53,958 nt of DNA, from contig JAQWTL010000029.1 of NCBI GenBank assembly GCA_029242715.1, forward strand, positions 1-53,958, given 5' to 3'. The notes under the pieces were generated by a model. The model searched no databases. It saw only the letters and a list, made by a program, of their open reading frames with translations, and had not been told where the DNA came from. The stretch comes from Phycisphaerales bacterium. Lineage in GTDB: Bacteria; Planctomycetota; Phycisphaerae; Phycisphaerales; SM1A02. Shown one piece after another: positions 4,455 through 39,402 of the stretch. Position 1 is the first letter of the stretch, and each line of letters opens with the position of its first letter. The position numbers and the translations under genes were made by a program.

Positions 4455-5285
4455 ATGACCATTGCACTTGATGACGACATCAAGACCGGCCTGCATGAAC
4501 GTCTTGAAGCCGCTCAGGCCATCGCCCAGGCCGGCAGTGAGATCCTGCGCCATTACTTCAAGAGCCAGGAATGGTCCGTCGAGGACAAGGCCGATGGTTC
4601 CCCGGTAACCACTGCAGACCGTGAAACGGAAACCTGCATACGCAAAGCGATCAACCATGCCTTTCCAGGTGATGGTCTCATCGGTGAGGAATATGGCGAC
4701 AAGGATGCTGATGGAACAACCGGCTATCGCTGGGTGATTGATCCCATCGATGGCACGATTTCATTCGTACATGGAGTACCCATGTTCGGAATACTCATCG
4801 GCATCGAACATGACCAGAAACCACTGGCAGGATTGATGGAATTTCCAATGCTTGATGAACGTGCCTGGGCCATACGTGGCGCGGGCGCTTGGCATCAAGT
4901 CGGCCACCAGGAACCAGTCGCAGCCCACGTCTCCAATACGAACAGCCTTGCACAATCAATGGTCTGCACGACATCCTTTGATTATTTCCGGGATCACGAA
5001 TACCCCGATGCCTACGTTGCCCTTGGACAGGCCTGCCGCCGAACCCGCGGATGGAGTGACTGCTACTGCCAACTGCTGCTGTGTACCGGAAGGGTCGATG
5101 CCGTGGTTGAACCGGAACTCAAGCGATGGGATATCGGTGCCATCGTGCCGATTCTCCAGGAAGCCGGGGGACGGTTCACCAACTGGAGTGGCCTGCAGGA
5201 GGGCGATCCAGGTGTCCCGAAGGGCATTGCGAGTAACGGATGCCTTCATGAGGCACTTGTTGATCTACTGAAGGGCTGGAGCTGA
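4455..5285 (+). CDS. hisN: Inositol monophosphatase-family phosphatase, probably histidinol-phosphatase
   Basis: The 276-residue protein has the full metal-site set of the inositol monophosphatase superfamily. GEEYG at about residue 76 supplies a glutamate ligand, WVIDPIDGTISF at about 94-105 is the DPxDGT motif, and RWDIGA at about 221 supplies the third aspartate. The sequence around the second motif (DPIDGT-SFVHGVPMFG-LIG) is closer to HisN-type histidinol-phosphate phosphatases than to SuhB. The likely reaction is L-histidinol phosphate to L-histidinol, but other phosphomonoesters are possible and no his genes are adjacent. It is cytoplasmic and Mg-dependent. No strong Shine-Dalgarno is visible. 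Confidence 0.82.
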   Translation: MTIALDDDIKTGLHERLEAAQAIAQAGSEILRHYFKSQEWSVEDKADGSPVTTADRETETCIRKAINHAFPGDGLIGEEYGDKDADGTTGYRWVIDPIDGTISFVHGVPMFGILIGIEHDQKPLAGLMEFPMLDERAWAIRGAGAWHQVGHQEPVAAHVSNTNSLAQSMVCTTSFDYFRDHEYPDAYVALGQACRRTRGWSDCYCQLLLCTGRVDAVVEPELKRWDIGAIVPILQEAGGRFTNWSGLQEGDPGVPKGIASNGCLHEALVDLLKGWS

Positions 5286-19878: not shown

Positions 19879-22407
<2,529 letters not shown>

Positions 22408-36367: not shown

Positions 36368-38197
36368 ATGGCGAAGGCCGCAACAAAAACCAAGCGAAAG
36401 AGTCGAGCAACAGCGGAGGAAATGGCCTCACGCCAACGGGAAATCTCCGTCAGCGAATTCTTCGCAAAGAATCGCCATCTGCTTGGATTCGATAACCCCA
36501 GAAAAGCGCTGCTGACCACAGTCAAGGAAGCTGTTGATAATGCCCTGGACGCCTGCGAAGAAGGTGGCATCCTGCCGGAGATCCAGGTCACGTTGTTGCA
36601 GGTTGAAGAGACTCGCTTCAAGATCACCATTCGTGACAACGGACCAGGCATTGTTCGAAAGCAGATAGACAACATCTTCGGCAAGCTTCTGTATGGATCA
36701 AAGTTCCATCGAATGAAGATGTCCCGGGGTCAGCAGGGTATCGGCATCTCTGCGGCTGGCATGTACGGCCTCATGACCACCGGCAAACCTCTCAAGATCA
36801 TTTCGAAGACAAAACGCAAGCCAGCTCATGAGGTCACACTCAAGATTGATACTTCCAAGAACCGCCCCGAGGTGGTTTCAGACAAGGAAGTTCCAAACGC
36901 TGACAAGCATTTTCCCGAAGGCCATGGAACGATGGTCACCATCGAACTGGAGGCTCGCTACCAGAAGGGCAAGCAATCCGTTGATGAGTATCTTGAACAG
37001 ACGGCTATCGCCAACCCACATGCCTGGTTCGTGTATGTGAACCCCGCCAACGAAACCATCGAGTTTCCTCGCGGCGTTGATGAACTTCCTGATGAGGCCA
37101 AGGAGATCAAGCCACATCCCAAAGGGATTGAGCTGGGCACGCTCATCCAGATGCTCGAACGGACTGATCCCAAAAGCGTCAGCGCCTTCCTCCAGGATGA
37201 GTTCTCTCGCGTCGGTCAGCGAAAAGCCAGCGAACTGGTCACTGTTGCTGCCAAGAAGACAACCAAGACACTGACCCCACGAACGCGCATCAGTACCATG
37301 GGGCATGATGAAGCTGAAGCCCTGTACAAGGCGATTCAGGACACCACCATCATGGCTCCGCCGACGGATTGCCTGGTCCCGATCGGTTCCAGAGCGATGC
37401 TTGCCGGCCTTCTGAAAGAGGTCAAAGCCGAATTCTTCTCTGCTGCCACCAGGCCCCCCGCCGTCTACCGCGGCAACCCTTTCCAGATCGAAGTAGCCAT
37501 TGCCTTTGGCGGCAAGCTTTCTTCAGACGAGTCTGCACGTGTACTGCGCTTTGCCAACCGAGTCCCGCTGCTTTACCAGCAATCCGCCTGTTCCTCATTC
37601 AAAGCCGTCATGGAAACGTCCTGGAAGAACTATGGGCTTTCTCAACCACGAAACGGAATGCCTGTAGGTCCGCTTGTCGTGCTGATTCACATGGCCAGCG
37701 TCTGGGTCCCCTTCACAAGTGAGTCGAAGGAAGCCATTGCGGACTACGACGAGATTCGAAAAGAAATGAAACTTGCCCTGCAGGAATGCGGGCGCAAGCT
37801 TGGCATCTATCTGCGACGTCGTACTCGCATGAAGAAGGAAGCTGAACGCCGCAGCGTCTTCGAGCGATACATTGGCGAGATCGCCAATGCCTGCGAATCC
37901 GTTACAGGTACTGATGCCAAGAAGGTCTACGATGCCTTGAAGAAACAGGCTGCACGCAAAACCGCGGAAGCGGACACCCAACTGGACCAGGATGGTCGTA
38001 TAGTTGAAAAAACCAGCCGACTGGATGACGACGAGCAGGTCATCATCATCGAGGAAGCCATACCCGACATCGGCGAAGATGATGAGATGAATGGCGAGCT
38101 TTTCGAGACAACTCGACTGGCCAGCCCCTCGGCACGTGGCAAGAAGAAGACCAAGGCTCGGAAGAAGAAAAAGAAGACGTCGCGCCGGTCTAGTTGA
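36368..38197 (+). CDS. top6B: DNA topoisomerase VI subunit B
   Basis: Subunit B is the ATPase of the type IIB topoisomerase. From the ATG at 36368 it has 609 residues. The GHKL site is clear: TTVKEAVDNALDACEEGG (N58), IRDNGPGI (D90) and the lid RGQQGIGISAAGMYGLM (120-136). An H2TH-like stretch with PHPKGIELGTLIQML and SVSAFLQDEFSRVGQRKASEL follows, then a transducer domain (YRGNPFQIEVAIAFGG, RFANRVPLLYQQSACSSFKAV, GPLVVLIHMASVWVPFTSESKEAIA). The C-terminus is an acidic stretch and a Lys-rich tail (GKKKTKARKKKKKT). It lies 20 bases before subunit A. Topoisomerase VI is typical of archaea and plants and uncommon in bacteria. Confidence 0.93.
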   Translation: MAKAATKTKRKSRATAEEMASRQREISVSEFFAKNRHLLGFDNPRKALLTTVKEAVDNALDACEEGGILPEIQVTLLQVEETRFKITIRDNGPGIVRKQIDNIFGKLLYGSKFHRMKMSRGQQGIGISAAGMYGLMTTGKPLKIISKTKRKPAHEVTLKIDTSKNRPEVVSDKEVPNADKHFPEGHGTMVTIELEARYQKGKQSVDEYLEQTAIANPHAWFVYVNPANETIEFPRGVDELPDEAKEIKPHPKGIELGTLIQMLERTDPKSVSAFLQDEFSRVGQRKASELVTVAAKKTTKTLTPRTRISTMGHDEAEALYKAIQDTTIMAPPTDCLVPIGSRAMLAGLLKEVKAEFFSAATRPPAVYRGNPFQIEVAIAFGGKLSSDESARVLRFANRVPLLYQQSACSSFKAVMETSWKNYGLSQPRNGMPVGPLVVLIHMASVWVPFTSESKEAIADYDEIRKEMKLALQECGRKLGIYLRRRTRMKKEAERRSVFERYIGEIANACESVTGTDAKKVYDALKKQAARKTAEADTQLDQDGRIVEKTSRLDDDEQVIIIEEAIPDIGEDDEMNGELFETTRLASPSARGKKKTKARKKKKKTSRRSS

Positions 38198-38217
38198 GAA
38201 CCGGCTGGAGTTTCCTG

Positions 38218-39402
38218 ATGGCCAAGAAGACCACGAAGAAAAAGACTTCCACGAAGAAGACCACGAAGAAGTCATCTTCTCGCAAGAATGTCGGACGCAC
38301 CGTGTCCGCCAAACGCGACAAGGAAACAACCGCCAAGATCGAGAAGATGGTTGAGGGAGTCGTCAAATCAAGCCTTGCACAGAAAGATCCGTTCCTGGAC
38401 ATCCCCATACGTTCCGTTTCGAACATGAAGTTCAATCAGCGGAAACGAATCCTGGAAATGGGCGAGAACACCCAACGACGAACACTCTTCAACGTGGGCC
38501 AAGCCCGCAAGTTCATGCAGGGCGTCCTGTTGTCCAAGGGTTGCCGGGATCTGATCGCCGCAGACAAGACCCTGAGCCTCCGTGGCATGTATTACATGTC
38601 ACTGCACACGATCGAGGGGACGAACGAGAAGACCTTCAATGAACAGTCCGAATCGGACGGCATTCTCGAGGATCTCGAAGTCACACTCGATGGCCTGAGA
38701 GAAGAGCTTCATGTCTTCGCGAAGAAGCGTGGCACCATGGTCGGAAACATTACGGTGACTGATAATGGTGATGAGATCAACTGCCGGCGAATGGGGACTG
38801 GCGGCTATGCCATTCCCAGCATCTGCGAGCCCAGCGTGATCCAGTTCGGGAAATGCGAAGCCGACTTTGTCCTTCATGTCGAGAAGGACACTGTCTGGAG
38901 CCGTTTCAATGAGGACAGGTTCTGGGAAGAACACAACTGCATTCTCACGGAAGGTTCAGGCCAACCCCCTCGTGGTGTACGCCGGCTCCTCTCCAGGCTC
39001 AACAAGGAGTTGGGACTTCCCATCTACTGTCTGCTCGATTGCGATCCATGGGGACACTACATCTACAGCGTCATCAAGCAAGGTTCGATCAACCTCGCAT
39101 TTGAAAGCGAACGCATGGCTGTCCCGGATGCCAAGTTCATCGGCATTCGCTCTGATGACTACGACCGGTGTGAACTTTCATCCGATGTTCGAATCGCGTT
39201 GAACGAACGTGATATTGCCCGAGCCAAACAGATTGCCGATTACCCATGGTTCCTCGACCGCAAGCCATGGCAGAAGGAAATCAGAACCATGCTCGGCAAC
39301 GGATTCAAGATGGAAGTCGAGTCGCTCATCACGAAAGACATCTCATATGTCACCGAGGTCTATGTCCCGGACCGGCTAAAGGCCAAAGATTTTCTCGACT
39401 AA
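38218..39402 (+). CDS. top6A: DNA topoisomerase VI subunit A (Spo11-like)
   Basis: Subunit A cuts both DNA strands through tyrosine. From the ATG at 38218, preceded by GGAG, it has 394 residues. The 5Y-CAP domain has SLRGMYYMSLH; by alignment with Spo11 the catalytic tyrosine should be Y126. The Toprim domain has VLHVEKDTVWSRF (metal glutamate) and LLDCDPWGHYIYSVIKQGS (DxD). RFWEEHNCILTEGSGQPPRGVRRLLSRL is the usual connecting segment. The first 35 residues are almost only Lys, Thr and Ser (AKKTTKKKTSTKKTTKKSSS), a histone-H1-like tail not typical of archaeal subunit A. It is immediately downstream of subunit B in one operon. Confidence 0.93.
   Translation: MAKKTTKKKTSTKKTTKKSSSRKNVGRTVSAKRDKETTAKIEKMVEGVVKSSLAQKDPFLDIPIRSVSNMKFNQRKRILEMGENTQRRTLFNVGQARKFMQGVLLSKGCRDLIAADKTLSLRGMYYMSLHTIEGTNEKTFNEQSESDGILEDLEVTLDGLREELHVFAKKRGTMVGNITVTDNGDEINCRRMGTGGYAIPSICEPSVIQFGKCEADFVLHVEKDTVWSRFNEDRFWEEHNCILTEGSGQPPRGVRRLLSRLNKELGLPIYCLLDCDPWGHYIYSVIKQGSINLAFESERMAVPDAKFIGIRSDDYDRCELSSDVRIALNERDIARAKQIADYPWFLDRKPWQKEIRTMLGNGFKMEVESLITKDISYVTEVYVPDRLKAKDFLD

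Follow-up and report, generated by a model that had tools for sequence, protein, structure and literature searches.

A topoisomerase VI with lysine-rich and LF-bearing ends as a possible stand-in for topoisomerase IV in Phycisphaerales

Why would a bacterium that possesses gyrase also encode a topoisomerase VI (topo VI), and what do the charged ends of the two subunits contribute to this enzyme? The question is raised by a contig of a Phycisphaerales bacterium (GenBank assembly GCA_029242715.1, contig JAQWTL010000029.1; the whole analysed stretch of 53,958 nt is referred to below as the window), in which the genes for subunits B and A (Top6B and Top6A) lie side by side. In the reading that we favor, at a probability of about 0.6, this is a working topo VI that decatenates in the stead of topoisomerase IV (topo IV), with the lysines tethering it to DNA and a Leu-Phe (LF) motif recruiting it, most likely to the sliding clamp DnaN.

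The enzyme and its disordered ends

The following features of the window, all on the + strand, are referred to throughout.

36368..38197, +: top6B, topo VI subunit B, 609 aa, from the ATG at 36368; GHKL ATPase, transducer and predicted-disordered C-terminal tail
36527..36760, +: GHKL motifs of B, EAVDNALDAC (residues 54-63), DNGPGI (90-95) and RGQQGIGISAAG (120-131), from invariance in the alignment
38024..38056, +: acidic-hydrophobic stretch DDDEQVIIIEE (residues 553-563) of the B tail, with V558 nearly invariant in the alignment
38090..38107, +: LF motif NGELFE (residues 575-580) in the B tail, a candidate sliding-clamp-binding motif, from conservation and predicted disorder
38138..38194, +: lysine-rich C-terminus of B (residues 591-609), from composition
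38218..39402, +: top6A, topo VI subunit A, 394 aa, from the ATG at 38218; winged helix and Toprim
38218..38286, +: lysine/threonine/serine-rich N-terminal tail of A (residues 1-23), from composition
38581..38598, +: RGMYYM, catalytic region of A, with Y126 as the invariant tyrosine of the alignment
39037..39054, +: Toprim DxD of A (D274, D276), from the alignment
19894..22407, +: gyrB, from Pfam and NCBIfam profiles

Judged by profile matches and motif conservation, the window encodes full-length topo VI A and B subunits with intact catalytic motifs, in adjoining genes separated by 20 nt. In Pfam and NCBIfam searches, Top6B matched HATPase (PF02518), Topo-VIb_trans (PF09239) and PRK04184 (688 bits), spanning residues 14-550, and Top6A matched TP6A_N, the topo VI all-beta domain, the TOP6A-Spo11 Toprim domain and PRK04342 (531 bits); the PDB sequences matched by the two proteins are topo VI without exception. 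A putative H2TH domain of Top6B falls within the range of the full-length topo VI B profiles; the structural model is mediocre. In alignments of 22 sequences for each subunit, R122, Y126, E222, D274 and D276 of Top6A and N58, D90-G94 and G121-G126 of Top6B are unchanged, with no substitution of a catalytic residue. Thus, the intact topo VI next to gyrase that a preliminary description, made from the sequence alone, had recognized is borne out by the profiles and PDB matches, and its gyrB is real. The genome (a 3.2-Mb assembly of 46 contigs, 96.7% complete) contains a single PF00521 protein, a GyrA with a GyrA-box (contig C41, outside the window), and one GyrB; profile searches of this assembly returned no match to a second GyrA/ParC or GyrB/ParE. 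Archaeal topo VI (Methanosarcina mazei, 2q2e, and S. shibatae, 2zbk; species as named in sections of PMC11302465) is alike in the presence of both subunits, domain order and catalytic residues, and differs from the enzyme described here in the lysine-rich N-terminus of A and C-terminus of B, the LF motif, and the gyrase in the host.

The LF motif of the B tail, which the preliminary description had overlooked, is conserved better than the lysines. The named relatives compared were the best 80 of at least 559 confirmed loci, of which 76 were extracted; L001 and L029, which duplicate the window, were excluded from the LF counts. LF is present in B of 50 of the 51 named loci with an A identity of at least 64% (the exception is L188). 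Of 100 B tails, 73 have it within the last 50 residues; with other duplicates also removed, the count is 72 of 99 distinct tails, versus a mean of 4.6 and a maximum of 11 in 1000 shuffles, although the loci are related and the counts hence overstate independence. The usual form is x-x-[T/S/G/D]-L-F-[G/E/D or end], with T, S, G or D before the leucine in 59 of 73 motifs, glutamine enriched at position -3 (8 of 73, p 0.003), and acidic residues commonest at -5 and -4. Of 246 neighboring, mechanically called open reading frames (ORFs), 42 have LF in the corresponding C-terminal stretch and 2 have the strict form, compared with 45 of 51 for B. The motif shifts in position, lying ahead of the lysines in the group of the window and behind them, at the C-terminus, in other relatives. 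A second conserved spot of the tail, residues 553-563, recurs as VLIV[DE] in several remoter loci; this acidic-hydrophobic stretch may form a strand with a docking role.

The basic ends were ranked among 239 ORFs, called mechanically at a minimum length of 150 aa over 378 kb of this genome including the window: Top6A has the most lysines in the first 35 residues (12; the runner-up has 7), and Top6B ranks second for the last 25 (9 lysines; one protein has 11). Top6A opens with 31 residues of which 24 are lysine, threonine, serine or arginine (net charge +12), and the last 25 residues of Top6B carry a charge of +13. The preliminary description had called these tails histone-like, a likeness that is limited to their lysine-rich composition. 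It had also described about 35 residues of nearly pure K, T and S at the start of A, which is indeed rich in K, T, S and R, but with an unbroken run of these only at residues 3-23; the Lys-rich end of B is real, but preceded by the acidic, hydrophobic and LF-bearing stretch. The proposed similarity of the tails across relatives holds at short distance, both being basic (A at least +7, B at least +9) in 16 of the 18 readable named loci with an A identity of at least 74%, and fails beyond it: of the 44 loci below 74%, 8 have two strongly basic tails. In L143 and L147, neither subunit has more than a weak tail. The 62 loci of this set were those of the 76 extracted that remained once L162, L179, L204, L192, L141 and L178 (start unclear or incomplete) and loci without a readable upstream B had been left out. 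No alignable tail sequence was found across the relatives, where charge and the LF core alone persist: the basic tails preserve charge rather than sequence and fade with distance. The charges of the A and B tails correlate with a Spearman coefficient of 0.55 over the 62 loci, 0.34 below 74% and -0.08 at or above it; these values are not corrected for kinship and are not used as proof. The N-terminal charge ranges from +2 to +16 in 70 Top6A proteins and from -7 to +4 in 28 GyrA proteins, and the C-terminal ends of GyrA range from -18 to +2.

The sole sampled protein with a C-terminus more lysine-rich than that of Top6B is a 352-aa protein of the same genome (L109 370-1428, contig C41), encoded beside an IF-2-like gene, with long PAKKKAPAKKAP repeats at its end and a weak, sub-threshold match to the histone H1-like HC2.

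Exchange with topoisomerase IV

The rarity that the preliminary description had ascribed to topo VI in bacteria is not borne out here: Top6A was found in 36 and Top6B in 35 of 41 near-group genomes (own genome included), and Top6A in 133 of the 294 genomes of the phylum sample. A recent isolated transfer into the genome of the window was rejected on the same near-group count. None of the 36 near genomes with Top6A contains a second whole GyrA/ParC gene (G016 has two PF00521 matches, which are fragments from separate contigs, and no match was obtained in G015 or G019).

Top6A is missing from five near genomes, three of which (G029, G033 and G037) constitute the near-group members of family f6 and lack Top6B as well. 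Two GyrA/ParC homologs are present in all four f6 genomes, the fourth (G272) agreeing for both Top6A and GyrA/ParC, and two GyrB/ParE homologs in all three that were searched. One copy of the GyrA-like pair has the GyrA-box and the other is a box-less ParC, which is followed by a ParE-sized gene directly in G033 and after one small ORF in G037; in G029 that gene lies on another contig. In the GyrA tree, f6 forms one clade (support 100) within the clade of the order (32 of 32 members, support 100), beside f5 with a weak support of 55. In the ParC tree, the four f6 proteins are not grouped, that of G272 falling with f73 and f38. As for the other two near genomes, G001 is probably incomplete at its topoisomerase loci, because GyrA and GyrB were likewise not found in it, and G038, in which neither topo VI subunit was found and gyrase stands alone, looks like a real loss: the downstream topo VI flank of its sister species (L128, C20:126000-144000) sits mid-way in a 193-kb contig, and the upstream flank is not beside it, indicating that the site was also rearranged.

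Across 155 good genomes of the phylum, one versus at least two PF00521 copies were counted in 72 and 9 genomes with topo VI and in 29 and 45 without it. Three checked corrections (both copies in G154 are GyrA, those in G288 are a single split gene, and the one copy of G097 is a ParC) change this to 73 and 8 versus 29 and 45 (Fisher p 1e-11, raw and over related genomes), so that a second GyrA/ParC gene accompanies topo VI in only 8 of 81 good genomes; the table counts copies rather than identities, and 26 two-copy genomes were checked individually. Nine families hold both topo VI states, among which f15, f21, f38 and f73 show a swap with topo IV, whereas in f2, f23, f40 and f78 topo VI varies at a constant number of PF00521 copies and f64 runs opposite to the trend. 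When kinship was taken into account (116 genomes), topo VI was found to have changed at least 23 times, yielding 17 independent pairs, in which topo IV changed in the opposite direction in about 7, in the same direction in 1, and did not differ in the remaining 9 (median p 0.07, range 0.04-0.22). The mutual exclusion of topo VI and topo IV is thus strong by raw count and borderline after kinship correction, and topo VI often, though not in every case, substitutes for topo IV. The decatenation role raised in the preliminary description fits this near-exclusion.

The LF motif occurs on topo VI and on the ParC of some families, and not on GyrA. To compare the two, 27 ParC and 28 GyrA proteins were collected, the box-less GyrA-like L217 being left out of both sets. 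In all four f6 genomes, ParC has a basic N-terminus followed by DGSLF, ERSLF, SDLF or ASLF, and an N-terminal LF, mostly after a basic stretch, is found in ParC of f21 (2 of 2 genomes examined), f15 (2 of 2) and f38 (1 of 1); G048 was not counted as LF-bearing, its ORF being without the motif. Most of these N-terminal extensions begin at an inferred TTG or GTG start. LF is not present in the sole f73 ParC or in four further ParC proteins of its type, nor in any of four read from a second type; in a third, short type it is found in 4 of 9, three times near the C-terminus as QQSLF, QMDLF and QLKLF. Among 24 GyrA ORFs of the order (18 with the box by pattern), the single LF is located upstream of the likely start, and in the set of 28 GyrA, which partly overlaps with these 24, two LF (L213 and L216) lie in apparently folded parts. 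The DnaE of the same genome contains GQGNLFGG, and GQxx[LMFI]F occurs there in 28 of 30 DnaE loci. We take this site to be the location of the clamp motif in Escherichia coli DnaE.

What the ends may do

In the favored reading, topo VI would decatenate sister chromosomes alongside gyrase, as topo IV does in most bacteria. Enzymes of type IIB are characterized by ATP-dependent passage of double strands with 2-nt overhangs. The folded cores of A and B would bind, cut and pass DNA, as their intact motifs suggest, and the lysine-rich ends would serve, by analogy, as flexible electrostatic tethers that keep the enzyme on DNA and raise its processivity. The closest functional precedent is the Streptomyces TopA, a topoisomerase with a lysine-rich end, and C-terminal lysine repeats increase the processivity of actinobacterial TopA; this enzyme differs in being type IA with an unrelated fold, and no LF motif is found in the relevant parts of that paper (PMC7398561). 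The xxLF of the disordered B tail would recruit the enzyme, most likely through DnaN, and so position decatenation behind the fork, at the site of precatenane formation. Sections of PMC12309361 give the clamp consensus as QL[S/D]LF or QxxLF, with an xxxLF of variable first position in DnaE3; the tails agree with these clients in LF at positions 4-5 and S, D, T or G at position 3, and differ in that Q is mostly missing. The clamp is our best single guess, and a candidate, for the LF partner, rated as a guess because most motifs, that of the window included, lack Q. Accordingly worded, a decatenase tethered to DNA by its lysines is the firmer part of the proposal, and its tethering to the clamp by LF is held less certainly.

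Besides the family-level exceptions, the kinship-corrected pairs, the fading of the tails below 74% and the relatedness of the LF loci described above, several observations weigh against this reading. LF is present in B of 3 and absent from 10 of the 13 named loci below 64% identity, Q is missing from 64 of 72 distinct motifs (N-G-E-L-F in the window), and the predicted disorder of Top6B residues 548-609 (predicted local distance difference test, pLDDT, <50) derives from a shallow 22-sequence alignment and a mediocre model (predicted template modeling score, pTM, 0.40). The B subunits of a second, more distant type of topo VI (see below) are missing the C-tail in all 17 read. LF is missing from 14 of 27 ParC read, the N-termini of which are not generally basic, with mixed charges from -5 to +10 in the 27 proteins. 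Gyrase alone, with neither Top6A nor a second GyrA/ParC, appears to be present in 29 of the 155 good genomes, a count to which incomplete assemblies may contribute. Finally, a few genomes, with G058 and G064 as the checked cases, hold gyrase, topo IV and topo VI together; these two assemblies belong to the phylum of the window, unlike the three-enzyme species described in parts of PMC11302465, which are from Pseudomonadota and Terrabacteria only.

The alternative that survives best, and that we regard as a serious possibility while leaning against it, retains topo VI as the decatenase and has LF bind a partner other than the clamp, such as SMC/condensin, a protein that binds SSB tails, or a division or segregation protein, with the lysines as generic DNA contacts. 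The frequent lack of Q and the acidic residues at -5 and -4 agree with it, as does the recruitment of E. coli ParC by the SMC protein MukB (described in part of PMC3950513); however, LF after T, S, G or D fits both the clamp consensus and the DnaE form of this lineage, and the three distant ParC with QQSLF, QMDLF and QLKLF near the C-terminus point to the clamp as well. That the tails are composition-driven, low-complexity ends without a specific function, the core being sufficient, seems improbable to us: the wide variation in length and sequence of the lysine tails and their weakness in L143, L147 and most loci below 74% would be expected of such ends, but they are exceptional among the 239 ORFs, the ends of GyrA are mainly acidic or neutral, and LF is kept in 50 of 51 closer relatives against about 5% in shuffles. 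Equally unlikely is an accessory enzyme of stress, defense or recombination next to a gyrase that decatenates alone, which would suit the gyrase-only genomes and the distant resemblance of Top6A to JetD nucleases (PADLOC E 0.00096) but not the presence of Top6A in 36 of 41 near genomes, the housekeeping and regulatory nature of the scanned genes flanking the operon, the full B with its ATPase, or the swap with ParC/ParE in f6.

Origins, precedents and meaning

The aligned A subunits fall into two types, with 52-94% and 31-35% identity to that of the window. In a tree that included three archaea only, a split supported at 100/99 separates type 1, together with Sulfolobus, from type 2, together with Methanosarcina and a haloarchaeon, which suggests at least two sources of planctomycete topo VI, and with three archaea nothing more; two clusters of bacterial topo VI, in agreement with two sources, are described in part of PMC11302465. 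Within type 1, a clade that unites f1, another f2 sequence and f73 (100/99) excludes f5 and the f2 sequence L081, so that two subtypes occur in a single order. B carries LF in L005 and L007 (both f5) and in L081, and not in L006 (f5) or in the sole f73 B read. Many type-2 A subunits have N-termini that start with lysines. In L271 (G132, f15), a type-2 Top6A has an N-terminal extension with the clamp-like AQGSLFGEE, on the other subunit and behind an inferred start codon.

Further observations concern the arrangement and naming of these genes. In G039 (C1, f4), Top6A (172775) and Top6B (755970) are widely separated on the same contig, so that not every member of the order has the two genes as an operon. 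Two Top6A Toprim matches each were found in G055, G092, G114, G160, G176 and G206 (two partial pieces in G160), and may represent a second copy of topo VI or of a Topo VIII-like enzyme. Three genomes of genus g21 each contain tens of matches to a stretch of about 160 bp inside an ORF (L118, around 4630-4791), perhaps a shared C-terminal domain. NCBIfam NF003333 labels Top6A "DNA topoisomerase IV subunit A," as does the haloarchaeal record CP031304.1 (171268-172359); a Top6A mislabeled in this way can fake a topo IV and hide an enzyme swap in annotation surveys.

Three other assignments of the locus were rejected. A Spo11-like A acting without a full ATPase B is ruled out by the adjoining full B, which keeps its ATPase motifs, and a Wadjet/MksG-JetD defense nuclease by the JetD match, which reaches only E 0.00096 and 16 bits in PADLOC. 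A plasmid origin was dismissed after a tblastn search of B against a plasmid collection returned five records, each below 60% identity, one from Synechococcus and four with haloarchaeal-type genus names. These four are presumably all haloarchaeal, as confirmed for two.

The list of bacterial topo VI by Allen and Maxwell (2024; PMC11302465, in part) includes families with topo VI and gyrase and without topo IV, and the same paper mentions, as unpublished, that topo VI from M. mazei rescued a parE mutant of E. coli. Among the best 80 of the at least 559 confirmed loci, the closest named records to the window are metagenome-assembled genomes of Phycisphaerales or Phycisphaerae. We take Sedimentisphaeraceae, Pirellulaceae, Thermoguttaceae and other families of that list to be planctomycete, and recognized no Phycisphaerales family in it. 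The words tail, Phycisphaer and Planctomycet are not present in the main text of PMC11302465. Among the top-ranked results of an open-licence literature search, in which the tails were not searched by name, no paper dedicated to topo VI in Phycisphaerales was found, nor did the top-ranked results name a bacterial topoisomerase as a sliding-clamp client; the bacterial client rows examined in the table of PMC9690074 contain no topoisomerase, and its PCNA column includes Topo II alpha. The setting, planctomycete topo VI without topo IV, was partly known; what is new is that the presumed decatenase of the order, whichever enzyme that is, repeatedly bears a conserved tag in a disordered end.

Topo IV is a type IIA enzyme with a DNA-gate arrangement unlike that of topo VI. 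The two enzymes share a presumed role and, for the ParC of f6, f21, f15 and f38, an N-terminal LF. It is conceivable, although we consider it rather doubtful, that in Phycisphaerales a disordered tag of lysines and LF ties the decatenase to the clamp and is kept while the enzyme swaps, being carried by B of two type-1 subtypes and by ParC of f6. If this were true, the recruitment tag would stay fixed and the enzyme would be interchangeable. A clade with type IIB and type IIA stand-ins that bear a similar disordered tag amounts to a natural experiment, in which position and tethering are separated from chemistry, bearing on the wider question of what links decatenation to replication in bacteria that do not follow the MukBEF model. 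The clade also makes the reason for the retention of topo VI in bacteria testable.

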